Assembly (NCBI GenBank): GCA_905221615.1
Contig: CAJNDT010002002.1
Span: 844,477 to 908,476, forward strand
Length of the DNA stretch: 64,000 nt
Direction of reading: 5' to 3'
From: Symbiodinium sp. CCMP2592
Taxonomy: Eukaryota; Sar; Dinophyceae; Suessiales; Symbiodiniaceae
Position numbers and translations under genes: made by a program. Of the stretch, positions 7,718 through 62,599 are shown in pieces (the stretch's first letter is position 1; the number at the start of each line of letters is the position of its first letter). A model generated the notes under the pieces. That model did no database searches, was not told where the DNA came from, and saw only the letters and a list, made by a program, of their open reading frames with translations.

Positions 7718-8747
7718 TGGATTATAGGTTGTTGGGAGTTTAGGGTTTGAGCTCGATGGCTCAGGTATGCTTCTTTATTGTATAAGGGTTAAGAAGCAGG
7801 CCTCTTGGGATAGAGTGTAGATCAGGCTTCCGGCTAGGCGCGGCCGGCTCCTACAAGCCCTTCCCGACTTAGTCTTAGTTAGCGGCATCATGTCATGGAG
7901 TGTCTCGAGCTCATGATCGTGACGAAAGCTGTTTGCCATTGTAAGACAACCTCCACAATCTATCTGTCTACCGGCTGACTTATTTTTTATCTATCTATCT
8001 ACAGTCGCAGCATGTCGCAGCTCTATATATCATCATCAAGAATCCACCGAGCCCCCATTATTTCGATTCTGCTCCACAGGCCGGGGATGCTAAGCACCCG
8101 TGGTTTCGGATTCCGAACGAAGGAAACCTACAGCCCAAAGCGACAAGCTACCCCAAACCCCACCCTGCTCCCCCGGACAAAAAAACCGAAGCCCTGAATC
8201 CTAAACCCTGGACCCTACACCCCCAAAAGCACAAAACCCTATGCCCTATAAATCATAGATCCGGAACTCTTCGAGAACCCTGCACCCTAAACCGCACCTG
8301 TAACTTGAGCAAGCTCGAACTCTGCTGGAAAAGGGGCTATTGCACTTTCAAAAAAACGCACCTCCCATGTGAGCAGGTTTTCATTTGGACCAACGTCCTC
8401 TTAGTCAGCGCCCTGCATGGCACCTGAGTTGCATCCGTCTAGGGCTCCAGTTATATGGTAGAATGTAGGGTTTCTATGTTAGGAATTACACTTATGATTT
8501 GGGGAAGTATCCCCCATAACAGTACCTAAGACCCTTTGGGATAGTAGCCCCTAAACCCTAAACTCTAAACCCTAGAATATGAAACTCACTAACCCATTCT
8601 TCAGGCAGCTGGAGCTTGAGGGTGCAGTGCTTGCCCCTCAATGTGCCTACCAAGGAACCCCTTTAAGGCCTACGGCCTAAGTAAAAGTATGGACGATGAA
8701 GTACAACGGAGCCTTCGAACCCTCACTTCTAAAAACCCTAAGCCCTA

Positions 8748-8837
8748 CCCTAAGGCCCTAAAGTAGTTCCTTTTTGGGGTTCATATTTAGAATCCTATTA
8801 GGTAATCCCAAAAAGGAACTACTTTGGGGCCTCTGGG
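8748..8837. mobile_element. MITE-like palindrome, family J
   Basis: Arms CCCTAAAGTAGTTCCTTTTT and GGAACTACTTTGGGGCC; TA flanks both ends (8746-8747, 8838-8839). The arm matches the right end of the 16.4-kb element at 58897-58932 (CAAAGTAGTTC and the outer CTCTRGGTA). Confidence 0.85.
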
Positions 8838-8974
8838 TAAACTCTAAACCCCTATTATAAGCCCTAAACCCTAAACCCTAAGCCCTGAACTCTAAACCCC
8901 TAAACCCCAAACCCTACGCCCTGAATTCTAGACCCCTAAACCCTAAGCCCTGAACTCTAAGCCCCTAAACCCTA

Positions 8975-35107: not shown

Positions 35108-35330
35108 TAATTACTAGAATAGTGTTTTGCGGTACATTCTTCTTTTACTATGATAAGGAAGCACCCCCCAAAAACCTGTATAGATAATTCTTACAGCCCC
35201 TGTTTTACTTGCCCAAGGGCTAAGGGTGGTTTAGGGTTCAGGGTCGAGGGCTGAGGGCTTAGGGTAGAACCGCTAAACTCCTAAACCCCCAACTAACACC
35301 GGAAAAGTAGACCGGACTTTCAAAACCTTA

Positions 35331-35434
35331 CCTGTAGTCTCCATTGTAGTTCCGTTTTTTGGTTTAACCAGTTATATATATGGTAAAGATCCGATAAGGT
35401 AACCGTAAAAAGGAGCTACAATGGAGACTACAGG
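35331..35434. mobile_element. MITE-like palindrome, family K
   Basis: CCTGTAGTCTCCATTGTAGT at the left and ACAATGGAGACTACAGG at the right; TA on both sides. Reading inward, CCATTGTAGTTCCGTTTTTTGG (22-base span, one of them variable) closely matches the left end of the 16.4-kb element at 42475-42496. Confidence 0.88.
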
Positions 35435-35455
35435 TACAACCTTAACCATTAAACC

Positions 35456-36458: not shown

Positions 36459-38379
36459 CTACTAAGTCCCATGATCCTTTAAGTAACCTTATAAAACCCC
36501 TCTTATAGAGCTCAGAACCATTTAAGGAACCCTTTAAGGAACCCTTTAAGTTACTAAGTCCCATGATCCTGTAAGTAACCTTATAAAACCCCTCTTATAG
36601 AGCTCAGAACCATTTAAGGAACCCTTTAAGGAACCCTTTAAGTTACTAAGTCCCATGATCCTTTAAGTAACCTTATAAAACCCCTCTTATAGAGCTCAGA
36701 ACCATTTAAGGAACCCTTTAAGGAACCCTTTAAGTTGCTAAGTCCCATGATCCTGTAAGTAACCTTATAAAACCCCTCTTATAGAGCTCAGAACCATTTA
36801 AGGAACCCTTTAAGGAACCCTTTAAGTTACTAAGTCCCATGATCCTTTAAGTAACCTTATAAAACCCCTCTTATAGAGCTCAGAACCATTTAAGGAACCC
36901 TTTAAGGAACCCTTTAAGTTACTAAGTCCCATGAGTAAGTAACCTTATAAAACCCCTCTTATAGAGCTCAGACCATTTAAGGAACCCTTTAAGGAACCCT
37001 TTAAGTTACTAAGTCCCATGATCCTTTAAGTAACCTTATAAAACCCCTCTTATAGAGCTCAGAACCCTTTAAGGAACCCTTTAAGTTACTAAGTCCCATG
37101 ATCCTTTAAGTAACCTTATAAAACCCCTCTTATAGAGCTCAGAACCATTTAAGGAACCCTTTAAGGAACCCTTTAAGTTACTAAGTCCCATGATCCTTTA
37201 AGTAACCTTATAAAACCCCCTCTTATAGAGCTCAGAACCATTTAAGGAACCCTTTAAGGAACCCTTTAAGTTACTAAGTCCCATGATCCTTTAAGTAACC
37301 TTATAAAACCCCTCTTATAGAGCTCAGAACCATTTAAGGAACCCTTTAAGGAACCCTTTAAGTTACTAAGTCCCATGATCCTTTAAGTAACCTTATAAAA
37401 CCCCTCTTATAGAGCTCAGAACCATTTAAGGAACCCTTTAAGGAACCCTTTAAGTTACTAAGTCCCATGATCCTGTAAGTAACCTTATAAAACCCCTCTT
37501 ATAGAGCTCAGAACCATTTAAGGAACCCTTTAAGGAACCCTTTAAGTTACTAAGTCCCATGATCCTTTAAGTAACCTTATAAAACCCCTCTTATAGAGCT
37601 CAGAACCATTTAAGGAACCCTTTAAGGAACCCTTTAGTTACTAAGTCCCATGATCCTTTAAGTAACCTTATAAAACCCCTCTTATAGAGCTCAGAACCAT
37701 TTAAGGAACCCTTTAAGGAACCCTTTAAGTTACTAAGTCCCATGATCCTTTAAGTAACCTTATAAAACCCCTCTTATAGAGCTCAGAACCATTTAAGGAA
37801 CCCTTTAAGGAACCCTTTAAGTTACTAAGTCCCATGATCCTTTAAGTAACCTTATAAAACCCCTCTTATAGAGCTCAGAACCATTTAAGGAACCCTTTAA
37901 GTTACTAAGTCCCATGATCCTTTAAGTAACCTTATAAAACCCCTCTTATAGAGCTCAGAACCATTTAAGGAACCCTTTAAGGAACCCTTTAAGTTACTAA
38001 GTCCCATGATCCTTTAAGTAACCTTATAAAACCCCTCTTATAGAGCTCAGAACCATTTAAGGGAACCCTTTAAGTTACTAAGTCCCATGATCCTTTAAGT
38101 AACCTTATAAAACCCCTCTTATAGAGCTCAGAACCATTTAAGGAACCCTTTAAGGAACCCTTTAAGTTACTAAGTCCCATGATCCTTTAAGTAACCTTAT
38201 AAAACCCCTCTTATAGAGCTCAGAACCATTTAAGGAACCCTTTAAGGAACCCTTTAAGTTACTAAGTCCCATGATCCTGTAAGTAACCTTATAAAACCCC
38301 TCTTATAGAGCTCAGAACCATTTAAGGAACCCTTTAAGGAACCCTTTAAGTTACTAAGTCCCATGATCCTTTAAGTAAC
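36459..38379. repeat. 92-bp satellite, about 21 units
   Basis: The unit holds ACTAAGTCCCATGATCC, AAGTAACCTTATAAAACCCC, TCTTATAGAGCTCAGAACC and two or three TTTAAGGAACCC. Twenty-two ACTAAGTCCC/GCTAAGTCCC boundaries were counted. Units differ by single changes (ttt/tgt after GATCC), by missing GGAACCC copies, and by one deletion of ATCCT near 36933. The unit begins with the right arm of family G palindromes. The array ends six bases before the acceptor of the light-harvesting exon at 38386. Confidence 0.93.
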
Positions 38380-38385
38380 TCTTAG

Positions 38386-38440: not shown

Positions 38441-41400
38441 GACGCGATTCCTTCATGGGGGTGTGGGGGGAGGGGGTTCACGGCTTCCTTTAAAGGCTCC
38501 TTTAAAGGGATCTATAGGGTTTCCTTTAAGGGTTCCTTTAAAGGGTTTAGGGGTTTTAGGGTTTAGGGAGTAATTACTACGGTTGATGATATAAATCCTG
38601 CATTACCTCAAGGACTCTAAACTATGGGAATCATGGTATAATCTCTATTATATGTAATGCAGGATTTATATCATCAACAACATGGCCCGTTACTGTATGG
38701 GGGCAGTGCCCAACCCATAGCCCAAGAACAATCCGAAGCCTTGAGGCTATCAGGCTCGAACAACGCTTAAGAATCAAGAACCTGTTCCTCCAAGAAGGCT
38801 TCACTTTCCTACTCTGAGGGTCCAAGAAACTAGTCCTTGCTCGTGGCTGTGTACCTGAAATGGATGACAAAAAGCACGGGGTACTTTGGGCGGCTAAACC
38901 CCAAACTCTCAAACCGAATCCACACTCGCACTGGTATGATTCTTGAGCCGCGAGGTGTCATTCTTGGGCCGCGAGGTGAAGTATGACAGAAGAAAAACCA
39001 ACATGAATGAAGACGTCCTTACAACGTGGACAGCCCTTAGCAGCCTTACCAAAACCTGAAGCAACCAAGCCAGGCAACAACAACAACAGCGACAAATACA
39101 AAGGCATCAACTAACCCCAAGCCCTAAAACCCCAACCCCCCCTTCCCCCTCTAAAATACAAAACACTGAACGATCCCCCTCAAGCCTCAACCCTAAATCA
39201 GACCAACAACCGACCAAAAAAACCGAAGAATCAACAGGTCTCATGACCTTCCCCGGCGACTCCACCGGCTTCAAGCACCTCCGCACGGCGGTGTTTTGGA
39301 TGCACCGGCGGGGGAGTCTTCCGGTTTCCTGGTTTTGTGGTTTATTGCTTAGGGTGTAGGGTTTAGGTTTTGGAACTTTGACTTTGGGGTGTAGGGGTTC
39401 ATTTAGGCACTTTAGGCTTGAGGGGTTTGTCAAAGTGCAGATGCTAGTTTTTTTCGCCAGGTTACTGTGCCTGATGCGTCGTAATGATCCAGTAGTCCTT
39501 ACATGTACGTCTACAGTACCACAGTACCAGGAACAATTTGGTCTATCATCAAGCACAAAGCGAAAACCGTGAAAACAAAACCCTCAAAACCCTAAACCAT
39601 CCTGAATCCCTAGACCCCAAACCCCTACACCCTAAACCCTTATACCGTATTTCTCAGGAGATTAAGCACGGACGTTTCGCGATGATGGCCGCAACCGGAT
39701 CTCTCTTCGCCCACTTTGTGAAGCTCCTTGGCTATGTCAGCCCCCGACCTTACTTAAGGGATATATTCCTCAATTAAAGAATATGTCCCCTAGTTATAAG
39801 GAACATATCCCTTAGATCTTATCAGGGATCCTATTATAATATAAAGTATGTTCCTTCATTGAGGGATCTTAAAGTCCCCTAAACCCTAAACCCAACAAAC
39901 CCTATAGATCCCCAATTCTTAAAGGAACCCCTTGTAGGTTCCTTTAAGGGATGTTGGAAGGTCCTGGGGCCCTCACTCTCCGGTTTAGGGCCGTAGGGTT
40001 TACAGCAGAGGTTCAGGGTTTTTAGGGGCCTAAATAATTAGTAGCCTTCCCTTAGAGTCCCTACATTCAAGGTCCAAGTACTCCTTATGATAGTACTTCA
40101 GGGCTTTTTTCAGATATCCAAAACCATAAATAAGGACTACTTGGACCCTTAGGGCTAACCGATAAACCATGCTCCCCGAAAGGGCCCAGAACCCTAAAAC
40201 CGCGAAGCTTCTCTGAAGGCTCCCCGGCTTCGAAGACGTTCCCACCGGCTTGGCCGCCCTGAACACGACCAAGGCTTTTTGAGGGCGGCGGGCTTAGGAT
40301 TTACAGGGTTTAGGGTTTAGGGTTTAGGGTTCGGATCTTGTACGGAGTTTAGGGTTTAGAGTTTACGGTATTCTTTCGGGCAGTTTAGGATTAGGGTTTA
40401 AGGTTAGGGGTTTGTAGCTTAAAAGTTTGAGGGTGTAGGGTTTTTGGACTTATAATATCAGGTTAGAGGGTTATGCTTTTTCGGGTGGGTTAGGTTTAAG
40501 GTTTTAGTGTTTGAAAAATTTCAGGTTGAAGGTTTAGGGTTTAGAGTTTAAGTATTTCTTGTTTAAGCATAGGGTTCAGCCGCCGCAGTCGCTCTGAATG
40601 ATGCCCTACGGGTCCAAGCACGCAAATAAGTAGTAGGGCCTGCCGTACTGTATCAAAATCCGTTCCGAGCATAGCAGTAAGGGCATAAAGCCCAACTTGT
40701 TGCATTCTTCCAGCCTTCGGGCTCAGACTTGTTTTCCCTAAGCTGCCCGACTACTGTACAGATATAGTACCAAGACGGAGCGGTGACTATTCCTTGAAGG
40801 TCCACTCGTACTTGCATGGCATGGAAACCTCCCAAAACCCTTGCCCAGTGATTCCAGAGAACACACATGCATATCGAACAGCAACAAACTAAGCGATAGC
40901 CCACAAACCCTAGCCCCACGCCCCCAAACCCAAAACCCTCAGCCCAAAGCCCTAAGCCCTAAACCCTCCACCCTAAACCCTAAACCCAAAGCCTTGAACC
41001 CTAAACCCCAGACCCTAAACCCCAACCCCACCCTCCCCCCTTCTTCAAGCGTAGAAACGTCAGGGCGCCGAGGGCTTTGCCTTGCTGTTCTTCCTCATCG
41101 CCGGTCATGAGGCCTCTGTTTAGGGTTTAGGGAAAGTTTAGGGACTAGGGTTTAGGGAGTTTAGGGTTGAGGGTTTAGGGATTAGGGTTTTGAGAGTAGG
41201 GAGTTCAGAGTTGAGGGTTTAGGGATTAGGGTTTAGGGACTAGGGAGTTTAGGGGTTGAGGGTTTAGGGATTAGGGAGTTGAGGGTTTAGGGATTAGGGT
41301 GTAGCGATCACGGTTTATGGAATATGGAGTTTAGGGTTGAGGGTTCAGTGATTAGGGTTTGGGTTTAGGGTTTTAGGGTTTAGGGGTTTGGGTTTAGGGC

Positions 41401-44400
41401 TTAGGGATTAGGGTTTAGGGTGAGGGCCAAACCTAGTTTACGAAAGCTTGAACAACTAGTCATGCTACTCTTTAGGAGTACTTTCGGGTTTTGGTTTAGG
41501 CTTTGGGGTCTAGGGTAGGGTTTGAGAGAACATAGGGGTGCTTTGATGTAGGAGTCTACCTGCATATACCTTGTATCATGCTAAGTGTTGGGGTACATTC
41601 CTTGATTGGCAAGGCGTATGCTCTTGGGACTGCTCAGCGTCAGTCAAAGTACATTCCCCACTTGCCCAAGGGTAGCACCAACGCTGATCCTGCGATCGCG
41701 ATCGCTGTTGAAGCTTCAAGAAAACAACAGCATCGACGACACCCCAAGAGTACAGACAAGCTCGACAGTGGATTTATTCTTTTCATTTTGGGGAATTCAT
41801 CCTAGGTTCAGCCGGTGGTGATCCCTGCGGAATCTGCAGCGGTTCCGTGGCAGCGCTGGAGCACATATGGCTATCACTGGGACGATGCTGAGGCCATAGC
41901 TTTTGACCCGACCACGGGCAGGTGCCAGCCGTGGCAGCAGCTTGAGCCACACGGTTGATGATGTAAATCCTGCAGGACCCATAATAAAAATATACAATAA
42001 TTTCAATAGTTTAGAGTCCTTAAGGTAATGTAGGATTTATATCATCACCCTAAACCCAAAACCCCAAGACCCTATAGATCCCTTAAACCCTTAAAGGTAC
42101 CCCTATAGATCCCTTTAAGGGCACCAGAGGGATTTATATGATCAACCGCAGCAGCATTTTCAGAAATGGCATTAACCCCCGGTCCTCTAGGAGCTGTAAG
42201 CCCTAAGCCCTAAGCCTGCGGGTCCATGTACTCATATAGTATATACATTGGCCTTAAAGTAGTCCCTATATAGGTACTTTGGGGCCAAAGTATATCCTAT
42301 TTGGGTACATGGACCCTTAGGGTAAAGCCTGCACCCTTAGATATAACTTAAACCCCACCTTACCCAGAGGGTCCAAGTCGCCACACAGAATGTACTCCGG
42401 CCTTAAGTCCCGAAAAAGGTACTTCGGGGCCACGGTATGTACTACTTGGGTACATGGACCCCTACCTAGGGTCACCAATGTAGTTCCTTTTTTTGGTTTA
42501 CCCGGGGAAACTACTTTTAATTGGTTTCGAGTTTTTCACGTTGGGACTTTCTTTCACGACATGCCGTGTTTCGTAAACTTGCATGGATAGACATGTCGCT
42601 GCCTCTCTTTTTTTGTCCACGAGCGCCCCTCCAACGAAGCTTTACTTCTAACAGATATTTCTGCGCAGTGCGCAAGGGTGCTGTCAGCTGATTCGTCGTT
42701 CTGCTTATCACACTCGTGCGGCCGACATAATCTTCAGCCATCTGAGTCGCGAATATGGCTGGGTTGAGCAACCACTGAGCTCCAGCGTTGAGTTGGAATT
42801 GCAGGTCGAAACGAACATGGCCCAGGTAGTGGTACTTGCTGATCAAATTGAAATACACAAGCTCGTCATTGAAGCAGGAACTTGCCAAGCGTGCATAGCA
42901 TGACAAGAAAATTTTCAACCACTCAACACACTGTCGTCCTTGCGAAGCTGTCAAGAATACCCGATCAGACACAAAGCACATGCGCAGAAAGTTGTCAATG
43001 GCGACGGCTGCCTCAAACATATTTTGTAAATTCTCATCCAGGGCCAAAGGTTGATCAAGATACGACACGACCCATTTCAATAATAGTCGTGTGTCGGAGC
43101 CTTTGAAAGTAGCATCTGGCATGGAGTTGGCACTATCCCAATTGAAGTTGTCTTTGGTGAACATCTTCACCTGTGGTGTCTCGTGCAGGATCGTCTTGCA
43201 GAATATTTTGAACTGCTTGTAAGCTTCCGCCAAATATGCTGGCTTGCCCCAGCCACTGGCAGGCTTGAAGTGCCCACAGGACACCAGAAAGGCAATGCAC
43301 GAAATTACGAATGTTCTCACAATGCCCAGATGACACAAATGGAAAAGGTCTTTGGACAAGAACTTGGCAGAAGTAGCCCCTGGCACCAACAGCATTGGTG
43401 CTGTGTTGTTTGGGGCCCAGGGTGGGCTCCAATTCACTGTCGTCATCCAGCGTGCATCAGAATTCATATCAGCACAGGGTATGACCATATCGTCTGCTTG
43501 GCACCACGGACACATAGCACCAGGCTCTGAAGCGAAGGTCCGGACACAATGCATAACCTTCGCCTGGGCGGGGAGATCTCCATCCAATGTTATGAAAATC
43601 GGATAGAATCTTTCATGCCTGAGCTCAAAGCCATCCGAAAATAACCCTTGCGCTTCTTTCGCGAAATGCTGCAATAATGAATCCACAGCAGCATTGCCCT
43701 TCTCAAATCCGGAGTGAAATCCCTTGTACTGCTCATGAAGCATACAAGACCAGAAAAAATATCGATCGAAGCTGCATGCAGTCGCAGCAAAGATTGGACC
43801 CCACGACACGTGCAAAACAGCTGTCTTGCGCACACCAGTTCCTTCATCGATGTGTATATGGCACGGAATGCATGAAGCGAGGCGCTCACCATGCATCCGG
43901 TAGACAATGTGCTCTGGGTTCAGTCGATTGTAAGTCCTCCAGAATTTCCGTAGCTTGCCCTGAAACTCCGGTATGTCTCTACATCCACCCAAAAGTTTTT
44001 GGGGATAGTTGCGTACCAGCTCTTGCAAAAAGTTGCGTACGGGAATGATTGGGTGCATCCCTTGACCAGTGTCTGTCAAGATTGGCACCTGCACTATGTC
44101 AGCTTTGAACATGTAGCCCAGTTGCTTCACTGTTCGAGTGAAATCCCTCGCTTGGTTTGCTGTCTCGCGTCCAAGTAAAAACAAGTTTGCCTGACCAGGA
44201 TGCCCAGGAAGCATTGTAGTAGCTAAATGATTTGCCTGTGCAGCAGCCGCTGTGGCATCTTTATCCTTGGATCATACAGCAGCAATGTGCAGTTGTCAAC
44301 GTGCCAGTGTTATGTCATGTCAAGCTGCTTGGCTTCATGTTGCTCTGCTAGCTTGCGGTTGCTTGCTGTCTTGAAAAAGATACACAAGTGCACATAGCAA

Positions 44401-47400
44401 GCACAAGAGCAGCTACCCACCCACACAGTACACACACCCGCACCTGCACCCCCCCCACCCACACTGACACCCACACCCACACCCGAAGCCACAGCCGTAG
44501 CCAACCCCACAGCCACAACACATCTCTGCATAAGCACGTCAAGCAGCAGGCAAACATGCACACACACATACACACAGCAAATGCATAGGAGCAGTTCCAC
44601 GTAGGTCTTGAGGACATCATTGATTGCTGCAGCACCTGGCGGAGGGAATGCACGAATTTAAAACAGGAATGGCCATGAAATAACAATGCAGCCGCAACAA
44701 CATATGCTTCTTTCACACCACTTGTTTGCAGTCAGCAGATCTTTCGAAGCAGCTCCTAGTCTTTCAAGACCAGCTGCAGACAATGAAGCAGGAACAGCCA
44801 CGTTTTGCAAAGCCGAAGCATGCGTAGCACTCTGCCAGCATCAGTACACAAACTAGCTACACACAAGTTGCTAAGTTAACTACATTCCATGACTGCCCAG
44901 CTTCACACTGGAAACATTCAAGACCAGCTGCAGAGGCACACCACAGCAATGACAACAGCTGTATAGATGTCACGACCTTTGTGAAACACATGTAAAAGCG
45001 ATATTGCCTATGTATACAGACTTGTACTAGTTGATCCTCAGCAGCACATCAAAATTCCGCCTGAAAATGCACAAGAGGCCAGGCTCGGATGCTGTTCTTC
45101 AAACAGCTCCTACTCAGCTTTCACTGCCTTCTCACGACTTTTGCTGGGTTTCTTCTGAAAGTGGCTCCTCGGATGTGGTTGATATCAGGGATACTTTTAG
45201 ATAGCCTATAGTAACGGTTGAGCTCTTGCAGAACAAGCAACTTCAAGGCATTCAGCTGGTTCTGAAAGGCTTGGCACCTGCAAAGCACATAAGAAGCCTT
45301 TTTCTGCTGGAACATGACCCACCGAAGAAGGTCTATAGGCCTGTCTCGGGCTGTTTGCAACGTGTCTGTGTAGGCATCTTTATTCCTGCTCAGTTGCGGG
45401 AAACAAACATGTGCATAGTGGCGAACGATCTCTTAACTTGTAGCCAGGTAGCTTCTTGTCAGGACCCAGCTCGATGTTGCAAAGAGAGGTGTAGAGGGTG
45501 TTAATATCACCTGGGATGCAAACCAATCTCAGGCATGTGGCGCATGATTGCTGTGTGTACACGTGTGTGTGTTGTGTCAGGTGTGCTGAAAGTCTGTTTG
45601 TGTGCAATGCAATTGCGTGCAGCCGATGAGCTCATGAGCTTCTCACACTCTTTCAAATCCTGCCTTGGTGATATGCGCACAGACAGCAAGCCCGCCCACA
45701 GCAACATACAGATACTTCCACAGAGAGAGACACACACAAGCAGCTGTTGAAACAAGACTCACATGCGTTGTGCAGCTCTCTGCTTCCAAGCGTGTTTTTG
45801 CATCTTTCAATAGCCCACGCTTGTTGAGCAAGCTTTTCTTGTATTTGGCTACCACGGAACCAATCTCCTCGTTTCTCTCGATGTCGGGAAGGCCCGTCAC
45901 CTTCTTCTTCTTTTCAGCTTTTGAGTCGGGTAGACCTTGATCTTCTTCATCCGATATCTCGAAACAATCACCCGCACCAAGATCGAAGTCTTCGTTCATG
46001 TAACCTAGCAGAATCTCATACGGATCATGTTGTTATGCACATACATCTTGTTATCGTACAGCGATTTCCAACCTGCTTCCTCCATCAACGACTCCAGCTC
46101 GGACAATTTCTCTGTTCCCTGCCTTCAGTCACTTGACAGTACACGCTGTAACACAAACACAGCCTCGCAACAAACGACTGCGAAGATGCGTGCCAAGGAA
46201 CTCCACCGTATCACTTGTCAAGACGAGAAACTTGAGTTCACCGGTATACAAGCACTTCTTGTGAAGCTTTTTTGCTGTACAATACCGTACAGCCCCTTCC
46301 ACTTTGTGCCTTGCCATGCGAGAAACAAACTAGCTTTGTAGCATAACCACACACTCAAGAGACGTTCTGTTGTTCAATCGAAGAACGAGGGCCACTTGCG
46401 ATCGATCATGTCTTGCTTCGTAAGCCACTCGTACCCGGCGACTCCACGTCGCCACTCTTTTGTCAGTTGACGTAGTTTGACCAAGGCTTCCAGCTTCGCC
46501 TGGTACGATGATCCTAGAGGAGTTTCGGGCGTTCAATCATCGGGCAACGAAGACACCCCACCTTGTTCTTTAGGTGACCTTGGTCTGGCATAAAGACCTT
46601 CAAGACAAATTCTCGCAGGAGTCGCGAGCGAGGCAACCCTCCTGGAGAACAGCATGCTACAGGCCGGTCAGTCCAAGACATTGCAAAAATGCACAGAGCA
46701 GCTGGTACATGAATCGTCCTTGCTCCCACTGCTTCTTGATTTCTGGGTCCACTTCTTGCTTTGACTTGTTGCACATGCGGTACAAGAAATTCCATGCTTC
46801 AGGGTGCGTCTGAGAGTTGTATTGGTCGGGTCGACCTGGCCTTGGGTATCAGCACAGCCTTCGAGCACAGCAGTAACAGGAAGTCTGAGACATGGTGTGT
46901 TACATGTTTGCTGTTTGCCTCATCCTGCTCACATGTCTTGTGTATGTGATCTTGCTTTGCTGAACTTTCATCACAAGCCAGAAATAAAACATGCACATGC
47001 ACACACACACACACACACTAATCTTTCCAACAGCAGCACACTAAAAAGATAACAATGCATATGAGTCACCCACTCCTCCTCGCGGTGGGCGCCTGCTTCT
47101 CTGCTTTCCCCGGCTGCTCGTCCGTCGGAATATCTGTGTGAGTCTGTCCCGTCACTGCAACAGCCTCTGGCACCGGAGGCTTCGGGTGAGGTTCATCTGA
47201 AGCCTTCTGTCCTGCCGCAGCTGTCGATTGTGCAACTGCTTCTTCTTGCTGTGGCCCTGCAGCATCTTTTGACTCTGATTGCCCAGCTGCTGGCGCAGGC
47301 ATACTGCTCTTCACTTGCCGTTGCACATGCCCTTGTGACATTGGGACTGACTGCCCTGTCGGCACTGCAGTCGCTTGCAAACTTGGCCGGCCGACCGTTT

Positions 47401-50400
47401 GCAAAAAAGTTGGATGGGCTGGAGCATGCTGGCCACCACTCTGGAGAAGACCTGCATGCTGCAGGCCACACTGCTGCCTTGCCAGCTGCTGCTGCTGCAT
47501 GGCTTGTTGCTGCATCATCTGATGATTGTGTTGCATGAGTTGCTGCTGATGCAATGCTTGATGTTGCAATGCTTGCTGCTGGTGCATCTGCTGAAAGATC
47601 TGTTGTTGTTGTTGTTGCTGCTGCTGCTGCTGCATATGCATTTGCGGCGAGAAGCATTGCAGGCCTTGAGGATGGCTCATCAGCTGCTGCATGCCCTGCT
47701 GCTGAAGCCTCTGTTGCACTTGCTGCGGGGACATCATCTGATATTGCGGGGCAGGGGCCGGAGGGAAAGCTGCAGCGAACGGCATGGCTTGGCCGGGAGA
47801 AGCCATCTGCAACGGGGAGGGCGGAAGCCCTGCTTTCGGAAGGGGTGGTGCTGGAGGAAACGCTTCCTCCACACGCGCAGCTTTGCGAGGGAGTGGCGGA
47901 GAGCTGAGTGGGGAGCGAACCCGACCAAGTTGAGGGGTCTGGGGGGCATGGGGCCCCGGCGTCTGCAGCTGCTGCTCTTGCTCCGACTGTCGCACATTAT
48001 GATGCTTCTTTAAGTATTCTGCTGCAGCTTGCTGTTGCGTGCTGGGATGCCCAGCCTCAGCCGCCACCCTCTTCACTTTATCGACCAGACTTCCATCTGC
48101 AGATTTGTTCTTCTTCTTGTCCGCAATCATTGCTTGAAGCGTTTCCATCTCCCTCTGTTTCTGGAGGAGCTGCTGCTCCAGGTTATCATCCTCCTGCTTG
48201 ATTTCAGTGCTTGGCCGGGTTGGCACATTTGCTGGGGGTGGGGCGACATCGCGAGGGATCGGCATCTGCTTCGACACCAACTCCTCACCAGTCAAAGGGT
48301 TGATCCTCTTGGCCGGAAGTGGGGGCTTGCACTTTGCCTGCAGCTGCTGTTGCTGCTGTGTTTTCTGTTCTTGCTCAGCCTGTCTTTGTGCCTCAGCAGC
48401 CATCTGCGCTTGAAGAGCCAGGTTCTGCTGGAAGCTCCACTGTTCCTGCAGCTGCTGTTGTTTGAGACTTTCTTCGGCAAGTCGAACCTGCTCCTGGAGG
48501 TAAGCTGCTTGCTTAGCATGCGTTGCTTCCATCTCTTCTTTGCTGTTGTGGATGTTCGGCGCCCAAGTTTGTCCTCCCTCGGGAGGCTCGTGCCCAGCAG
48601 CTGGAGCAGTGTGCTCCGGCCGTGTTTCCTCTTCCTGGCCTCGTTCATAGTTGACTTCTGGCACTTCCTCTTGTGCCTCCTTCTTGACTGCAGCAGCTCT
48701 CGTCTTGATACCTTAGGTTAATCATATACCATGCCACTACATGATACAATATTGTACTTGCTTCTAGACATTGAAATGTGATACTGCTGCACATGAACAA
48801 CACTGACATATAACGGCCACACATGCAGAGAAACAGATACAACATCGCCGAAAGCACATTGCTTGCAAGTGTCATACAGAAGCACAGCAAACAGCGATGC
48901 AACACAACCGACATGACTGTCACATGCATGCACATGCTGCACAGCAAGCAACAAGAAATGCAGGGTAGATACTTGCCAAGATCTCGGACTTCAGTGCTTC
49001 TGACTCCTCGGAGTCATCTAGCTGGCTCAGCATCTGCTCCGTCGTCGGGCTGAGCTCCGGGTCATCCTCATACAACTCCTCCTTCACCTTAGTCGTAGTA
49101 AGACACACACACACACATGACATATTACGTCCACACATATTGCTTTCCTACTTGCACACCCTTGTATTTACCAACCCACTTACCCATGTTCATGTAGCCC
49201 CACATACACACTCACACACACACATACACACACACACACACAGGACTGCCGATAAGGCACGGCAGGCACAGGATGAGCTGGCTGCTTCTGTAGCTGGAGC
49301 ACACGGTTACCAGCCATGAGGCTGTTGCAAGACCAAGACCTACTTACAGCAGGCCCGATCATACCCTTTGAAATCAGCTGCCTTCAAAACAGCTGCCCCG
49401 AGATCAAGTATGCAGACAGTCAGACTGGCACAGCACATAGAAGCGATCACAACAGCATTTGCACACAAGCTTTGCATGGAGTGGGGGGTCGGGACCTGCA
49501 TCTATCCTCTGCTTCTTGCACTCCCTGTCCATGTCTGATGAACCTGGCAATGCAAAGTGGGCCAGCAGGAGTTAAGTCATTTGGCTCAGCACTAGCTTTG
49601 GAATCAGATTTTGGGTGTGTCCTTCAGTAAGCAACCTGGCACGCTAGTTAGCGGGAGGTAAGTTTTTGGTTTAATCCCTCTTCAGCAAACTGCAACGCTA
49701 GTTAGCGGGAGGCAGGTTTTTGGTTTTCTCAATATACAACCTGACACGCTTAAAATAAAGTTGCTCATTCATGCAGCAGACCCACAACACGTTACCGACA
49801 CAAGACTTATTTGGTAGTTGTACAAGCAAGGTGCAACGCTAGTTAGCGGGAGGCAGGTTTTTGGTTTTCTTCTCAATATACAACCTAGCACGCTTAAAAC
49901 AAGTTGCTCATTCATGCAGCAGACCCACAACACTTTACGGAGAAGGCCATTAAGCGGGAACGTTTTGATTACACACGAGAGTATAAGCAAGGTGCAACGC
50001 TAGTTAGCGGGAGGCAGGTTTTTGGTTTTCTTCTCAACATGCAACCTAGCACGCTTAAAATACAGCTGCTCATTCATGCAGCAGACCCACAACACTTTAC
50101 GGAGAAGGCCATTAAGCGGGAAAGTTCTGATTACGCACGAGAGTATAAACGCTTGTTAGCGGGAGGCAGGTTTTTGGTTTTGTTTCTCGATACACAACTT
50201 GGCACGCTTAAAATACAGTTGCTCATTCATGCAGCATGCAGACCCATGCACAACACTCTACCGGGAAGCCCATGGTTAAGTGGGAAAGTTTTGATTACAT
50301 GCAATGTAAGTGTCTTGCCTCATGCCGTGCTGCTGCATTAAAGATTTTATTTATATTTATATGTATGTGTGATACATGAGCAGTGTAAGTTACATAATAT

Positions 50401-53400
50401 ATATATAATACACATAATATATTGTACATGGTTTTAGATGCATGCACATTCGTGAATAAAACATGTTACAGTGTGTAATACGTATCGAACAACGATACTG
50501 ATATCATTGGAAATGAAGTTTTACGAGCTTGTATGGTTTTGGTTGAGTGAAGTGATACAACATAAGCATAATTATCAGAAGTGGTTTTCCAGTGGGGTTT
50601 CCTATTCAAAATTGGTTTTCCCGCTCGCCATAATTGGTTTTCCAATACACTCGTTGGTTTCCCATAGCATTATCCTAAATTTTTAAATCTCACGCGACCT
50701 TGTTCCAAGACTTGGTTTTCCTATTCCAAGACCTGGTTTTCCAACGCAACCTCACGCAACCTCGCGCGAGGTTCTGTGGCACAAATTCTGGTTTTCAGCG
50801 GTCCCTTGCATACCAAGCCCTTCTAAGCTTGAAAACCAGAAACTCAAACAGATCTGTGCATATGTGTATGTATACACATATACATATATACGTACATCCG
50901 TATAAGTTCATGCATGTCAGTTCCGGTAGTGTACGTGGGCTTGAGCTGAGTGCGTGTAGGGGTGCATGTGTGTCGGGCTGTGTCTCTGTTTGGGTGTATG
51001 TGCTTTTGACTGTGTGGGTGTGGGTGCATGTGTGTATGTGTCTGGATGCTTGGTCGTATGATTTTCACCGCCTGGGTTGGTGCATCAACTGACACCAATT
51101 GAGACAGAACTTCTTTCCACAACACACACAAGTCAGACAGAACATCTTGCACCACCTACTATCATACAACACAGAATGAGCCAGCCGAGCATGCACCTTC
51201 CCCAAACCTTCAGACCTGTTTATCTTCCAACGCAGGAACACGAGGGTCTGTCGATGCAGGCTCGTCGTAAGTAATTAACATTGCATGTCACATGAATTGA
51301 CCTCAGCTAGAGGGAGAGAGCATCTCGCATTGATTGCGGAAGCTGCAGCTTCTTGCAACCCCGTAGGTATGCACATACCTCCGGCATCCTCGCATCGGCC
51401 CAGGTATCAGAATCTTTAAAAGCAGCCAGCATAGCCACAACTGTAGGCTCCGTGTCCTTTGTGTAACGATCACTCTGCACTTTTACAGCACTAGCCAGCA
51501 AGTACTTCGACAGCAAAGAAACATGGCTCCTGTGCCGTCTCCCGGAAACCGTGCACACCCTCTGACAACCTGGGCAGCAGCTCCCCGATTTTGTAGCCAT
51601 AGGCACAAGTGTAGCACCTGGAGCAAGCAGGAATTTGTAGGGACAATCCTTTTGCTATGCTTATACATTACCTCGATATCATATTCGCCACTTGAGGCTG
51701 GAACTGAGATTGTTTGAGCTTCTTCTGCACACCAGTGAACCGTTTGGTGCCCGTAGAATCCACTTTTCGCTGCACTAGTGGCTGTGCTGTCTTCTTGTAT
51801 TCCTCAGCTCAATCGTACCATGATTCTCCGATCTCAAGACACAAATTTGTACAAGCCGACATACTCGACGGTAACCACTGAGAAACAAGTAGCCTTCAGC
51901 AATGCCTTGTCAGATTGCAGTTCGTGGATGAGGCTGCTGTTGCTCCAAATCATGGTGGGCTTGACATTCTCCTTGCCGTAGGCGCACATGAAGATGCTTT
52001 GTCGAAAGACCTGGTCCAAGGCAGCCCGGAGCTTAATCACCACATGGTACATGTGTGAGGCAATGCTTGTGGAAAAATCGAACGAATGAAAGCTGATGAT
52101 TAGAAGAAACCAAATCACAATCAGCTTGTCACACAGCTCCTCGAAACGTGGCAGAAAACGTATCTTCGCACTTGCTGGTTGCTCCAACAAGAAGACATGA
52201 CCAAGCGCTGCAGCCAGAAGGCAAAGTAGCACACACCTGGCAGGGTGTGTATATATAGTTGCAGCAGCAAGACACAGAGAGAGAAAGGAGAGGGAGAGAG
52301 GGAAAGAGAGAGAGAGAGAGAGAGATTTGGAAGAGAAGAGAAACAGAGACTTATGAAGACATGTGCCAGCTTGCCCGTGGCTGGTTAAATTGAAACATTT
52401 AGATACGACCCAGAACCTGTGGGCGAGCAAGTTCCCGTTGACAACGAAATCGTGATGCATATTGCCCAGCGGGGTGACAATGCTGCGTTGTGCTTGGGCT
52501 TGGCACATGTCTGAGAAAGAAGAGCAAACTGGGGCCAGCAGTAACAAACCAGCTGGCTCCATCCGCAGCACAGCAGCTACTGCAAGCCTGCACACCGGAA
52601 GACTGCACACGTTGACCTCAATGCCTCATTCTTAGCACCGTCCACAGGCTCGAAAGTTGTGAAATTAAAGAAGAAAAATACTACTGGGAATTGCCACCCG
52701 GCAAACGCCATGCCAGCTGCTGACGACAAATCATTGTACTTGCCACCATAGGAAAGATCCATGTTGACTACCTTGAAGTTTAACTTGCGTAAGGCGTAGG
52801 TCAAGTTGGCGTGGCCAGCGAACATCTCCACCACTCGCCAGTCCTAGCCAGCATATACAAGCATCGAAGGATTGTGTTTGAAAGATTGAGAAGGCAAGCA
52901 ACGGCTCCCGAATACAATAAACAGTCAGTCCAAGCATCCCTGTCCAAGCAGAAGTCGTGCGTGAAGTACATAAAGATGACACATAGCATAAGCACCTCAT
53001 TCAGTCGATATATATTAATCATTACACAGAAAGTCGGCAGTCGGCACCACACTGGCCAATCAATCCGAGCAAAGAGCCTTGGGGATAGAAGCTCGTCGCA
53101 TTCGCAAGATCAGTTGGCCAAGGCTCCATGCCCGCTCTCGCATGAGCATATTGTCACAATGCGAAAAAATCTGCACTAACTGTCACTAACTTCGAGACTG
53201 GCAGCTGAAGACAACATGAAACCTGATACAGCACAAGAGCAATCAGCAACAACATGAGCGATCAGGTAAACTGACAAACCCAGAAGAGCTTAAAGAATCA
53301 AGGAAATGAAACATGACGGCTCACTCGAGCATCGCTGCAAGGGCACCCGCGAGCGCGGCATGAGCAAGACCTCAGCAAAGCATGATATCTTTGTATATGG

Positions 53401-56400
53401 CAAGGGCGTCCATGCAAGCATTCACAAATGAAGTTGTAGCTAGTGCCGAAATTTTCGCATCGCTCCGCACATCAGGATCTTTGGTCGTCCATGCAGCAGC
53501 ACCTAGACATGTGCCTTGGACTGCACTTGGATACCACGCGGAAGAGTTGGCCCAAAAGTCATGAGCAAGCAACATCGTGCTTGGTCCCATTTGCCCATCG
53601 TGTTGACACGACAGCAGCACTGATCACTGTTGGCCTACAAGACATAGCCGTCTGAGCATGTTTGCAACTATACAATCAGGTCTTGCACAGTTCCTGACAG
53701 AACAATTGCTTGAGGTCAGTTTCCTGTGCCCCCCGACCTGGATTCTACATAGTTGGCTCACACTACAGTCTAAGCTATACATCAGCCAGAGATAGCAAAA
53801 TGCCACTGCATTCAAAGCCCTGCAGAGAACATGTCTTCCTGAAAGCATTAGTCTATATGATCAACAGAATCCACAATGTATGTCTGCTGTCCCAGAGGAA
53901 ACCTGCGTGCGCTAAGATATGTTGTTCTCAGTCTGAACAGGAGCTTTAAACCAGCGGTTTCTTAGCCTTGAGCTGGATATCAAACTCGTCTAGAAGGCGA
54001 CCCATGGCCTGCTGTGCAAAGGTAGCCGTAGCCTGCCAATTGTCCTCTCCATGGTTCTCCAAGAACCATGCCTCAAATAGAATTACCGATTCCCCCAAAG
54101 GGCACACGTGCAAACACGATACGAAGAAGTATTAACTTCTTGGTTACTATATCACATACACTGATTGAAAGACATGTCTGTCATAACAGCAAGGCACAAC
54201 TTCATTGGCCAGATGAATGAGGATGGTGAAGGAGACGAAGCTGTATGTGAAGCAACTTTTGCCAGTCGCCCTGTTCCTGATTCCCACCTTTGGGGCAGAC
54301 CCCTTCCAATACACCTCCAGCCGGTAGTATTCGGTGTTTTCGATTAGCCTGAGATATGCGAGCAGACTACACCACATGCACAAATCTTCACAAGGCACAC
54401 TGATGCGTAGAGAAGATCATACTGCATTTGACTGCCAACAACATCTTGACAGCCCGCAACGGTCTACATAACAACGTGAAAAGCGACGATAACAACAGTA
54501 CCAACAGCAGCAGCAGCAGCAGCACCAGCAGCAACAATGACACCCATCACTTGTGCAGCAGCAACAGCAACTGCGACGACAATACCAACACCACCAGCAG
54601 CAGCAGCAGCAGCAGCAGGAGCGGGACAAAGCACAAGCAGCAACAACAACCCCCAATAGCACCGCCAACACCAACATCAACATCAACAACAACGACAACA
54701 ACAGCAGCAGCAAGAACAACAACACAACAACAGCAGCAGCGACCGCAACAACAACACCAACAACATCAACAACAGCAACAACAACAACAACAACAACAAC
54801 AGCAGCAACAACAATAGCAAATAGGGATCAGCATACACTACAACAGCTGCAGTCACAACAGTAGGCAGGTTGTTATCAAGAGGCAGCTTCAGCTTTGCTT
54901 TCTCCTTGTCTGTGACAAGCTGGACGTTGGCGACCGTCGTGGTAGCTGCTTCCTCTCCACCTTCCTCTCCACCTTCCTCTCCACCTTTCTCTCCTTGCTC
55001 ATTCTCACCCCGCTTGTTCTGATGCTTGCGCTTGTGATTGCTCTCATCGCCTTGTGTTTTCCGTCCCTGCTTTGCTGGATTCGATGGGGCCGATGGCTCT
55101 GACATGGGCAATGCAGAATCAGGCTCTTCGGATTGGGTCTTCCTTCTCTTGTTGTCCACAGGCTTTGGCTCTTCAGCTGTATGCGTTGAAGGCTTCTGCC
55201 CCTTCTTTCCCATCCCTTTCCCCTGCTTACCCTGTCCTTCCTTCTCCTGCGAAGGGGCAGAGTCCTTCTTTCCCCTCCCCTTCGAGCTTCTACCGGTCAA
55301 TCCTTCCTCCTGTTCTGGCTGCACTGGCTTGGCCTTAGCCTTGGCCTTCCCTTTCGCAGTACACTTGGGTTTAGCATCCTTGGCGTCGTCGGCAACTGGG
55401 GAAGCATCCAAAGTAGCTCGGGGTTCCTCAACCTCCTCGGTGATCTGGTTGCTTGGTCCTCTGCCTTTGCCTGCAGCACCCTTTCCCCTTCCCACAGCGC
55501 CCTTTGCAGCAGGACGCTTCATTATGCGGAGGGTCACCTGCTGCTGGTGGGTGAGGACCGGCTTTGGTGGGGATGCTGCTGGTTCTGACAATGGCTCACC
55601 ATCCAACTCTAAAGATACAGCAGAGGGCGGGCTGGGTCTATTCAAGGGCTTGCCGTCAGCATCAAGAGGCGAGAAGTGGACAGTCGTCGGGGTTCGTGCA
55701 GGCCCCGCCGCAACAGGGCTGTTCCATGAACTTGGGATAGCTTTGGGCACCTCCGGTGGGGGACTGACAAGCTGCTCCCGCTCCTTCTTAGGTGAGGGGG
55801 TCAAGAGAAAGATAGGGGCAGGGATGACATCTGCTGCCGGCAGGATCTCAGCTTCCTTGGCGGCTTCTCCATCTTCGATAGCCTGTAGCTCGTCATTATC
55901 CCGATCCAGATGATCTCCCAGCTGCAAAGTTGTTGCATCTGACCTTTAAATCAAGCTTTGACCCACAGTGCTGGAAGACTGCAAAGCACTAGCTCACTAG
56001 CAAGTAACAAGCAGGATACATCAGCATCATTTCATTTCCATGCTTACATGTGCACTGACACATGACACCCAGGCAAGTCACTCAGCATCATTTTCCGGGT
56101 CCTGATCTGGCATTACTACAAGCCAGACTACGGTAACTCTGCAGCAACAAGTGTAAGTCCTCCTGTTGTGCTTCTTGGTTGAGCAAGGACATCTCCAGCT
56201 GCTTAGCAGCATCCTCGGTCGTGTCAAGTATAGTAACGAACAGGCCAGAGCATGCAGTTGTACACCTTGCTTATATTGCTCTGTCCCAGGTGCCTCCATT
56301 GTTTGCTCATCCACGATCTGGGTTTCGAGCTCGGACGGGTTCAAGACACTGGGCGACAACCACAAAGCAGCGAATTTGATAAATAGCAAGCAGCATCACT

Positions 56401-59400
56401 GACACTACATAAACAAGACTGTCACTACATTGCACATGCACAAGCAGCAAGCATGACCCTGCACCAAGACAAGAAGCAGTGCATGTGAAGGATTGCTGGC
56501 ATTGCACAGATTTGCACTGTTGTATAGCTTTGCTGCGTGGTGATTGTTTTCGTGTTTTCAGCTAGCAGGCTTGTCAGACAAAGCACGGTGCTGCAATTTC
56601 AAGCTCCAGGGTCTTCTTTGGATTAGCCAGCTCCGCTTTCTTTTGCTTCTGTGATGCCACAACATCAGCAAGCTTCTTCTTCAGAGCAACCAGATGTGGA
56701 TTCTTTGGAGGTCTGCCTTGCAAAGAATATAGAAGTCAAGCAACTGATGCGCATACAAGACAGAGTGCATGTTGCCATGGACAAACTGCGAATCATGTAA
56801 ATCAACATGCGAGCATACAAAGCCTGTGGGCACAGCTGGTTCAGGAGAGTCAATGATGATAGACTTGTCCACAGTCGGCTTCATCGACATAGAACGGCAC
56901 GGCGTGGCGATAGGAATCACAGGCGTAGGTAAATTCGGGGTCGAGCTGGAGCCGGTAGAACGAATCATGCCGTCACTCATCTCCTCATCGTCATCCTTTA
57001 CAAGAGCCATCGTCTCCTGCGGCACGTGCTTGAGCAACGAGTTCGGCTCGAAAGTCGTAGCCGCTTCCTCCTCCGTGATAGGCTCCCGGAGCTCTTCGTC
57101 GAGCTCGAACATCTCCTCAGGCTCCTCATCCTCCAACACCTCAGGCCCATCATCATTGTTCTCCGGAAGTTCCGCTGGGACCTCCGACGATCGCCCATCC
57201 GATGAAAAGGAAGATCGCGACGACTTTGCCCGACTTCTCTTCATGAACCGAACATTCTGGGGATTGTTCTCATGCTGTCGGACAAGCTCCTGAGCAGCAA
57301 CCACAACTTCAGCATCAGCTAAAAATGCTCCTCATAAAACAAGCTGCAACAGCATGTAGCTTATCCTACTTCAGAGCATGCAATCAGGACTCGGTCAAGC
57401 TGTGCACTTCCGGATCACGTTGCTGCTCGGAACGCTCAGCCAAGCCTGGGAAACCTATCTGATACCCAAGCAGATGCACATAACCAGAGCACACATAAAG
57501 ATACATATAACAATCATGGCGAACACTGACTGACCTGCAACACGCACAGACACACACACACATGCAGACTTCTGAGGATGGGTCGTTTGTGCGCAGTGAG
57601 GATGGTTTTGATGCTGCGAGCTTCATCTTTCACTCTGGACTGTGGCATATCCACCTTGCTCACAAAAGCATGAAAACCGCCGATATGCCGAACAGATACA
57701 CCCTGCCGGTACCCAGATACCAAACAAGACATCCTCCTGAGGCACTGCTCAAACATGCTATGTGCACTTGCAAGATTTCGAGGCAATTTTTGCAAGTGCG
57801 ACAAAATTCATACTAAATTCATGCGAGCTTCCCCCCACTCTTCCAGCACATAAAAGAGGATGGGCCTTATAACCGGCACAGTGCCCAGCTGCTCGTGCTC
57901 GACAGCTCGTGGCACAAAATGACGAAGCAGAATCTGAGTAGCTGGGGTCAGCCAAGACCGTGCAATCTGCACACACATCTACCCACATGCTGGTCCAAAA
58001 ACTGGCACTCACTACACGTGTCACTCACTGCTGTCTATGCTTGCAAGACACCCGGTTCAACTTCATTGCCTGTGCCGAAGGCTTCTTGTTCTTTCCGGAC
58101 TCATTGGATGGCCATAGGAGGAAGTGCTTCGTATTTTCCGTGCGAGCCTTCACCTCTTCATCCTTTTTCATATCCTGCAAGTATCTAGCAGAGAAACAAG
58201 AAGACTCTTTGGCAGATATATGGATTACCATACATGGCAACAGGCATGACAGAGGAGTCCTCGATGACATCATAAGCAAGTGCCTTTAGCTTGGCACGGG
58301 ACTCTGCTTCGGTCAACGCCACCATCGGCGCAGCCATGGGGTCAGCAATAGCAGCCATCTAAAACAATGTTCGATGTTTTCGGATGGACGTCATGAACAT
58401 CAGCAACATGCGCAAGGTCTGGGCACAAAATCTCACGGAAACAAAATGATATGGACGCATGTTGGCAAGAATATGACAGCATGCAGTGCCATGCCACATT
58501 TGCCACAACGTGTCATTACAGCTGCCACAGCATCGTCAAAATCTTTGATTTTCACTGATTGACACTTTAAGGCCCAAGCCGACGGAGCATAGGAAGGATC
58601 CGGCCATCTCCGAGAAGAGCTCGGAAGTTTCTTTCTTATATCAAAAGTGTTGGCTAAGCTTGCTGAATTATACGAATGTCTTGAAACATGCAGTCTCAGA
58701 CATGATAATAAAAGTCTAGCTAGGAATTTTACTATCACCCGTGTCCAAGTATGAGTCGACATGCATGTTGGGCCAGCTGATTATGCATAATGGCCACGTT
58801 TGGACACCAGCCAGTGTCGGAAATCAAGAACAGGTTTCTCAATTTCAAGAACTAGTTGAACCATAAGTAAGTAGTTTCAACCAGAAAGAATTACTCAACC
58901 AACAAAAAGAACTACTTTGGAGCCTCTAGGTATACCCTATACCATTGTAGAAAGCTCATAGATCCTTCAAAGGAGCCCTTACGGCACCCTAAAGCAACCC
59001 TGTTTTGGCACCTGAACCCTTAGGACCCTTCATTGTTTAATTCCCTAAACCCTAATTAAAGCCTAAACCTAAACCCTAAGCCGAATACCCTAAACCAAAA
59101 GCCTAAACCGAAACCTTAAACCAAAACCCTAAGCCGAAGCCCTAGACCTTAATTACTTATCTAACGCAGAAACAAACAGCGAGCCAGGCCGTGACCTGGA
59201 AGCCCCAGAAGGGCGAGCCCGGCTCTTTCGGCGACCCGCTTCTCGCCGGCACTTTGTGGGTTTGGAATTGGCGGGGGGTTAGGGGTGTAGAGGTCTGGAT
59301 TCAAGGTTTCAGGGTTTTGGGGTATAGTGTACTTGTGGCGATTTGGGGGTTTAGGGATTTGTGGTTTAGGTTTAGACTTTAGTTCAGGCGTTTAGGGTTT

Positions 59401-61456: not shown

Positions 61457-61891
61457 TGCTTTTGCCAAAGTGGATGGGTTTTCCTATAAGGGATAGGTCG
61501 GATAGGTTCCTTTGAGGGCTATAATCATAGTGGATCTATAATCATAGTTTAGGGTTATCGGACAGATAGAAAGGTTTCTTCGGGTCCGTTTAAGTGTTCC
61601 TTGCATGGGCTCCTTGGAGGGGTTCCATTGAAGGGTTTGTTTAGACGGCTCCCTTCAGGTGCTCCCTTAAGGCTTCATCTAGGGGACACGGATCTTTAAT
61701 GGCTCAGAGTTCGGGCGCTAGGGTTTGAGGGTTCGCTAAGTCGAGAAAGGACACTAAGGACACTTTATGGTTTTGGTGGGGTTTTGGTTTTGTCGGATGT
61801 AGCCGGGTCCTGAAGCTTGCCGGTTTAGCACCGGGCCCCCTCCGGGCTTGTGTTCTAAGGTGTGACGGGGATATTTTGGTTCGAGTCTTGC

Positions 61892-61998: not shown

Positions 61999-62392
61999 GT
62001 TTTTTTCTCCAACTCGAATGATGTAAGGCTTGAGGAGGGGCCTTGGGTTTCCCGAAGGGTGTCGCGTCCTAGGAACCCGATGAAGAAGCCCCTGGCTGTA
62101 GGTCGGTTCTGCAAGTTTGATTCTCTTTCGTCCATGACTGTGGGTAGATGGCAACCCCTATAAACACTGCAACTTCACGCCTATGCCGTAAGAAGACACT
62201 GACAGAACACACACGCGACACGGTACAGTGCAATCTTCCACCAATTTCCTGAATCAAAGGGCAGCAACACTTGCAAAGGCAGTCTCCACCACGGAGCTTC
62301 AAGCGGAAAGCTCTACACTTGCAAAATATTCAACTGTGCAACATCTGAATTTTCAACCGCCTTACTCCCTAAACTGCCACTACGAGACCCTA

Positions 62393-62492
62393 CCAATAGT
62401 CTCCATTGTAGTTCCTTTCTGGGGTTGCCTTATAGGATCCTAATTATATCTTTGGTTAACCCAAAATAAGGAACTACAATGGAGACTACAGG
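62393..62492. mobile_element. MITE-like palindrome, family K
   Basis: CCAATAGTCTCCATTGTAGT at the left, ACAATGGAGACTACAGG at the right; TA on both sides. Confidence 0.87.
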
Positions 62493-62599
62493 TAGCTAAA
62501 CCCCAAGCCATCTCACACCAAACCCGAAGCCCTAAAAGTCCCGAAACTTCAAACCCCGGAACCCGAAAAGCACCTTTCAAATGCAGGAACCTTAAGGAT

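Follow-up and report, generated by a model that had tools for sequence, protein, structure and literature searches.

We analysed a 64,000-nucleotide stretch (the window) of contig CAJNDT010002002.1 (C2002; positions 844,477 to 908,476) from Symbiodinium sp. CCMP2592, whose assembly GCA_905221615.1 comprises 1.098 Gb in 5,383 contigs; base 64000 of the window is the contig end. The available text of PMC8045281 describes a hybrid assembly of S. tridacnidorum CCMP2592. At this locus, exons of a light-harvesting antenna gene lie on both sides of a 16,470-bp block that is bounded by inverted repeats and encodes a DDE transposase and a methyltransferase-like protein. The main features, some of them delimited by comparison with the related element E2, are as follows:

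42463 to 58932, no strand assigned: whole element, from TA to TA, with an end-to-end second copy at C5274:1216586-1234478
42463 to 42498, plus strand: left terminal inverted repeat, its first TA being the target TA
58897 to 58932, minus strand: right terminal inverted repeat, its last TA being the target TA
42517 to 44271, minus strand: DDE transposase catalytic exon, a 584-codon open frame with D142, D232, C254-x2-C257, H481-x3-H485 and E513
45697 to 46842, minus strand: upstream conserved segments of the transposase gene (45697-45882, 45907-46005, 46168-46311, 46389-46502, 46562-46642 and 46747-46842), found by tblastx with E2
47066 to 48712, minus strand: Q-rich open frame of 548 codons, probably the N-terminal part of the transposase gene, or else a separate gene
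51307 to 52843, minus strand: methyltransferase-like gene with conserved segments at approximately 52706-52843 (FAG), 52416-52591 (PVCSSFS), 52119-52235 (LEQP), 51909-52010, 51692-51805, 51542-51619 and a final one reaching the stop at 51307
54195 to 54383, minus strand: conserved segment EVYWKGSAPK.., found by tblastx with E2, with a ratio of nonsynonymous to synonymous substitution rates (dN/dS) of 0.23 between E2 and the related element E3
57814 to 58183, minus strand: conserved 5'-most segments (57814-57936 and 58052-58183)
41064 to 41111, plus strand: antenna exon 5, with a GC donor
59188 to 59255, plus strand: antenna exon 6, joining in frame with exons 5 and 7
61384 to 61458, plus strand: first part of antenna exon 7, joining in frame and supported by a peptide match

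The original prediction, made from the letters alone, had proposed a 16.4-kb block with inverted ends and TA at both outer edges, and both features held on reanalysis, the two 36-bp ends being identical at 30 of 36 positions. When the left end was compared with every minus-strand 36-mer in the window, scores of at least 28 were obtained only with the right end and with four ends of miniature inverted-repeat transposable elements (MITEs), the next-best scores being 25 and 23. Inside the TA the termini read CCTAG..CTAGG, and the ends are of the TACCTAG..GTAGTTC type. A second full copy lies deep within the 1.47-Mb contig C5274, with flanks that differ on both sides and with 30 substitutions in 16,443 aligned bases plus small indels. 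On the right, identity between the two copies ends at the TA; on the left it runs six bases beyond the TA, where both flanks have GACCCC. Because this near-identical copy stops at the same TA..TA limits within different flanks, we regard the block as mobile. The C5274 copy also carries an insertion of about 1.4 kb (L011:5220-6620, at window position 46590). This insertion contains internal repeats, its ends resemble CCGATTAAC..CTTAATCGG, and it may itself be a further small DNA transposon.

Relatives of the transposase gave at least 104 exon-level matches (75 of 1054 candidates scored), and the five nearest other loci, which fall into three groups, all have a like end just past the 3' side of the open reading frame (ORF), matching at 26 to 30 of 36 positions. 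Together with the second copy, this recurrence of the ends beside transposase relatives bears out the suggestion that a giant DNA transposon had inserted into the antenna gene, for which the lack of a second block or of further such ends had been named as a refutation. Related full elements were found on contigs C3513 (15,425 bp), C890 (15,222 bp) and C5269 (15,240 bp). The last two are 99.16% identical, their identity stops in TA-rich sequence no more than 22-31 bases from the repeats, and TACCTAG is replaced by ATCCTAGG at the left end of C890 and by TATCTAGA at the right end of C5269. E2, like the block, has TA at both ends within unlike flanks. Exon-like segments are collinear between the element groups, and dN/dS values of 0.10-0.33 over eight stretches compared between E2 and E3 indicate purifying selection; no ratio could be obtained from the three comparisons with E1, in which silent sites were saturated.

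The structure of the host antenna gene was assessed for exons 4-7. The peptides of exons 4-6 match PF00504 (E 4.8e-6) and the dinoflagellate light-harvesting proteins PCPI-13/PCPI-12, and with exon 7, newly located at 61384, the match to PCPI-12 reaches 6.8e-15. An uninterrupted antenna paralogue (L045, C1724:806819-807040) shares 89% identity with the query made of exons 4-6; about 15 of its residues, between exons 4 and 5, were not located in the window. Because the reading frame is continuous over exons 5-6-7 and this paralogue runs on directly from exon 5 into exon 6, we place the block inside an intron. Exons 5 and 6 had been predicted to be collinear with the protein family across a gap of about 18 kb, as these matches confirm; exon 5, placed at 41064-41117, is real and starts where predicted, but ends at 41111. 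The genes of the block run opposite to the host gene, and the view that they occupy the minus strand only agrees with the listed translated matches, which fall in minus frames in 16 of 16 cases for E2 and 13 of 14 for E3.

Further repeats were seen in and around the antenna gene. A 30-bp stretch that includes the acceptor and the start of exon 7 occurs twice (61195-61224 and 61364-61393), and the two occurrences flank a MITE of the transposon family. Palindromic repeats of the GGTCCATGTA../..TACATGGACCC type and of the TAATTAAGGGGTTTTGGAGG type stand in the introns at 42206-42330 and 59728-59837, and a long tandem array of TTTAAGGAACCCTTTAAG-like units spans 36500-38380, left of exon 4.

The ORF at 42517-44271 encodes a DDE transposase, most likely of the CMCT clade (CACTA-Mirage-Chapaev-Transib, the relatives of RAG1), judging by its predicted structure and its motifs. 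Its AlphaFold model has the fold of RAG1, ProtoRAG and Transib over about 400-430 residues, and the D-D-C2C-H3H-E signature of the clade, as defined in the available text of PMC12730594, is present. An initial reading of the protein as KDZ/Zisupton, prompted by the appearance of its motifs, was abandoned once the fold had matched RAG1 and the C2C/H3H signature had been recognised. Proteins P0002 and P0012 combine part of the 45697-46842 region with the transposase domain, and a Q-rich stretch is conserved between E2 and E3 (dN/dS 0.12). Searching the PDB by sequence with P0035, A1 and A3 returned nothing related, and none of 18 pattern matches in viral contigs encodes a relative of the transposase.

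The second core gene appears to encode a C5-cytosine-methyltransferase-like protein, on the strength of a structural model. P0035, its predicted counterpart on the second copy, reads through introns, and the relative P0040 has a predicted class I fold of the C5-cytosine methyltransferase type. The gene occurs in seven of the eight element groups examined, on the same strand and in the same order; for four of the seven, only the stretch expected from the block layout was examined. Its dN/dS is 0.12-0.14, and a cysteine and a glutamate that are near-invariant in alignment A4 are present in these seven groups.

The block had been described as free of MITEs; four MITEs with ends of the same type lie near it:

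61242 to 61345, no strand assigned: MITE of 104 bp, same-type terminal repeats, TA/TA, within a CCCTAAA repeat restored with one TA
62391 to 62494, no strand assigned: MITE of 104 bp, same-type terminal repeats, TA/TA
35329 to 35436, no strand assigned: MITE of 108 bp, same-type terminal repeats, TA/TA
8746 to 8839, no strand assigned: MITE of 94 bp, related terminal repeats, TA/TA

Searching with the left end gave 34 DNA matches, of which 3 are the block, and 20 were made into loci. Among the 17 non-block loci, an end pair is found in 16 and the matched end itself is paired in 15, at a spacing of 103-115 bp and once of 206 bp. The flanks of 24 MITEs were then rejoined with none, one or two TA and scored for their fit to the CCCTAAA intron repeats. 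Four of the 24 were informative (61242-61345, 8746-8839, one in L020 and one in L031), and one-TA scores of 22, 20, 20 and 20 of 22 compare with at most 14/20 with none and at most 16/24 with two. Because all four informative flanks regain the repeat with a single TA, the sequences support duplication of TA on insertion by elements with these ends, and the block itself would have inserted in the same way. A duplication of this size falls within the range of 2-5 bp that characterises the CMCT clade.

Taking these observations together, we consider it very probable that the block is an autonomous, recently mobile, 16.5-kb cut-and-paste CMCT transposon with a TA target and a methyltransferase-like core gene. 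Several observations weigh against this. The rejoined flanks of the block, like those of the other 20 MITEs, do not decide the number of TA. The positions of H481 and H485 hold histidine in 12/19 and 12/18 of the rows with a residue, in a ragged part of the alignment, and a Pfam search gave no convincing transposase family, none matching more than one of 35 members (best E 0.014). Within the TA the termini are CC..GG, in place of the CA..TG usual in CMCT elements; as the available text of PMC12730594 gives 5'-CA..TG-3' "in most cases", the termini do not exclude the clade. On the side of the second gene, the methyltransferase fold is predicted for the relative P0040 rather than for the spliced protein of the element itself. 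PF00145 did not score above its gathering threshold, the sole sub-threshold match being P0044 (E 0.34). C4557 is collinear with C3513 for 7.5 kb only and shows no methyltransferase match over the 19.5 kb examined. C5329, whose transposase is 32% identical, shows none over 7.5 kb and lacks a significant left end (21/36).

A third occurrence of the block, on C4568, raises the question of whether it is a segmental duplication or an assembly artefact rather than a product of transposition. It differs from the window block by 3 substitutions in 16,467 bases and couples the right flank of the window (1,674/1,674 bases) with the flank that lies to the left of the copy on C5274. The left end of C4568 (612641-618088; L043, L010) matches C5274 over 5,448 bp with zero mismatches and one gap. 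Where the window and C5274 disagree, the C4568 block carries the window variants from 44181 on, the exceptions being 52404, 54537 and a short gap near 54595; moreover, C2002 and C4568 both terminate about 5 kb past the block. An artefact or duplication is nevertheless very unlikely as an account of the block: the C5274 copy lies far from any contig end, is unlike the window in both flanks and loses its identity at the TA..TA limits but for six further shared bases on the left, the two 15.2-kb copies on C890 and C5269 show the same behaviour, and exons 4-5 and 6-7 of one antenna gene stand on opposite sides of the block. Because exons of one gene flank it in the window, the window arrangement is favoured and C4568 would then be misjoined; two loci and a misjoined C4568 end is the simplest reading of these sequences, with only the C4568 end looking artefactual. 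Very improbable, in our view, is a composite in which two MITEs or MITE halves surround host genes that are moved in trans by a transposase encoded elsewhere. The ends do match a large MITE family, but each side has one terminal repeat and not a whole MITE. Only 54 bases separate the transposase ORF from the outer edge of the block on the left, and three element groups have the gene order in common and carry the end next to the transposase. With a transposase and a conserved second gene inside, the alternative first suggested, a MITE-delimited cargo unit, is not supported.

The remaining alternatives accept the transposon and concern its second gene. It seems improbable that the gene is cargo with no function in the transposon: methyltransferase activity is a prediction only, and C4557 (incomplete) and C5329 lack the gene in the stretches examined, yet its conserved strand and order across the groups and its low dN/dS argue against a mere passenger. 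Somewhat less improbable, though still unlikely, is a C5-methyltransferase fold that serves another substrate, or one that has lost catalysis and binds DNA alongside the transposase, in the way that RAG2 partners RAG1, the antibody-gene recombinase. C5-methyltransferases usually carry the motifs PPC and ENV, and the presence here of PVC and EQP, as well as the lack of a Pfam match above threshold, would suit such a protein; the conserved cysteine and glutamate speak against it.

Returning to the transposon with a methyltransferase-like core gene, we would picture its cycle as follows. The transposase (42517-44271 plus upstream exons) would recognise the TACCTAG..GTAGTTC ends, excise the element and insert it at a TA, duplicating the dinucleotide, and an enzyme of this kind probably moves the MITEs of about 100 bp as well. 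An opposite-strand copy in the antenna intron would be tolerated because it is removed by splicing as part of an 18-kb GC-AG intron. The methyltransferase-like protein would most likely methylate the DNA of the element itself, making the element less costly or adjusting transposition and silencing. The role of this protein is the weakest step of the mechanism: as a guess we favour self-methylation that would limit damage or control transposition, the main rival being a partner that is structural or catalytically inactive.

Among known systems, the ESTA elements of fungi, EnSpm-like transposons with TA target-site duplications (TSDs), a RAG1-like CMCT transposase and a TET/JBP dioxygenase gene, come close in the available text of Kojima 2025 (PMC12730594). 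Both they and the present element have such a transposase with C2C and H3-4H between the second D and the last E, a TA target and a DNA-cytosine-modification gene. ESTA elements carry the dioxygenase and occur in rust fungi, whereas ours carries a methyltransferase-like gene and occurs in a dinoflagellate, a comparison made by description and not by terminal sequence or tree. Plavaka and EnSpm (CACTA) elements share the transposase signature, with TSDs of 2 bp (PlavakaA) or of 2 or 3 bp (PlavakaB), but end in TGT..ACA or CATCA..TGATG (PlavakaA/B) or CACTA (EnSpm) in contrast to CCTAG here, where the transposase has no Pfam match. Transib, ProtoRAG and RAG1 share the fold and the D-D-E with zinc-ligand motifs; their TSD is 5 bp and their partner is RAG2 or none, in contrast to TA and a methyltransferase-like partner. 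EnSpm elements of 16-20 kb with 4-5 ORFs are described in the red alga Chondrus crispus in the accessible part of PMC6431247. Symbiodinium itself harbours transposons with a cytosine methyltransferase, SymbioLINE-Dnmt and SymbioDIRS-Dnmt3, which according to the excerpts of de Mendoza 2018 (PMC5890265) are retrotransposons with an intronless PF00145 gene, whereas the present element is a DNA transposon with terminal inverted repeats and an intron-rich gene too divergent for PF00145; the same excerpts mention DNA transposons encoding DNMT in marine viruses. Our literature search, thin in its coverage of subscription papers, found no dinoflagellate DNA transposon with a transposase and methyltransferase-like pair. 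The proposed novelty of a multi-gene, TA-ended element is thus reduced, as large EnSpm/CACTA and TA-target RAG1-like elements are in print, and persists, as far as that search reached, for the gene set. Tentatively, and with rather less than even confidence, we suggest a dinoflagellate RAG1/Transib-type lineage with a two-gene core, in which the divergent methyltransferase would be needed for the life cycle through self-methylation that controls excision or silencing; such a core would mirror the fungal TET-carrying transposons and be a counterpart of the RAG1-RAG2 pairing.

The block shows recent movement of large multi-gene RAG1-type cut-and-paste transposons in a coral-symbiont genome, and shows that such an element can occupy a photosynthesis gene whose reading frame stays intact. 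It also provides a likely source of a genome-wide MITE family. The transposase broadens the known relatives of RAG1. A methyltransferase-like gene under purifying selection in a DNA transposon, set beside the methyltransferase retrotransposons of Symbiodinium and the TET transposons of fungi, makes repeated takeover of host cytosine-methylation chemistry by transposons a testable idea.

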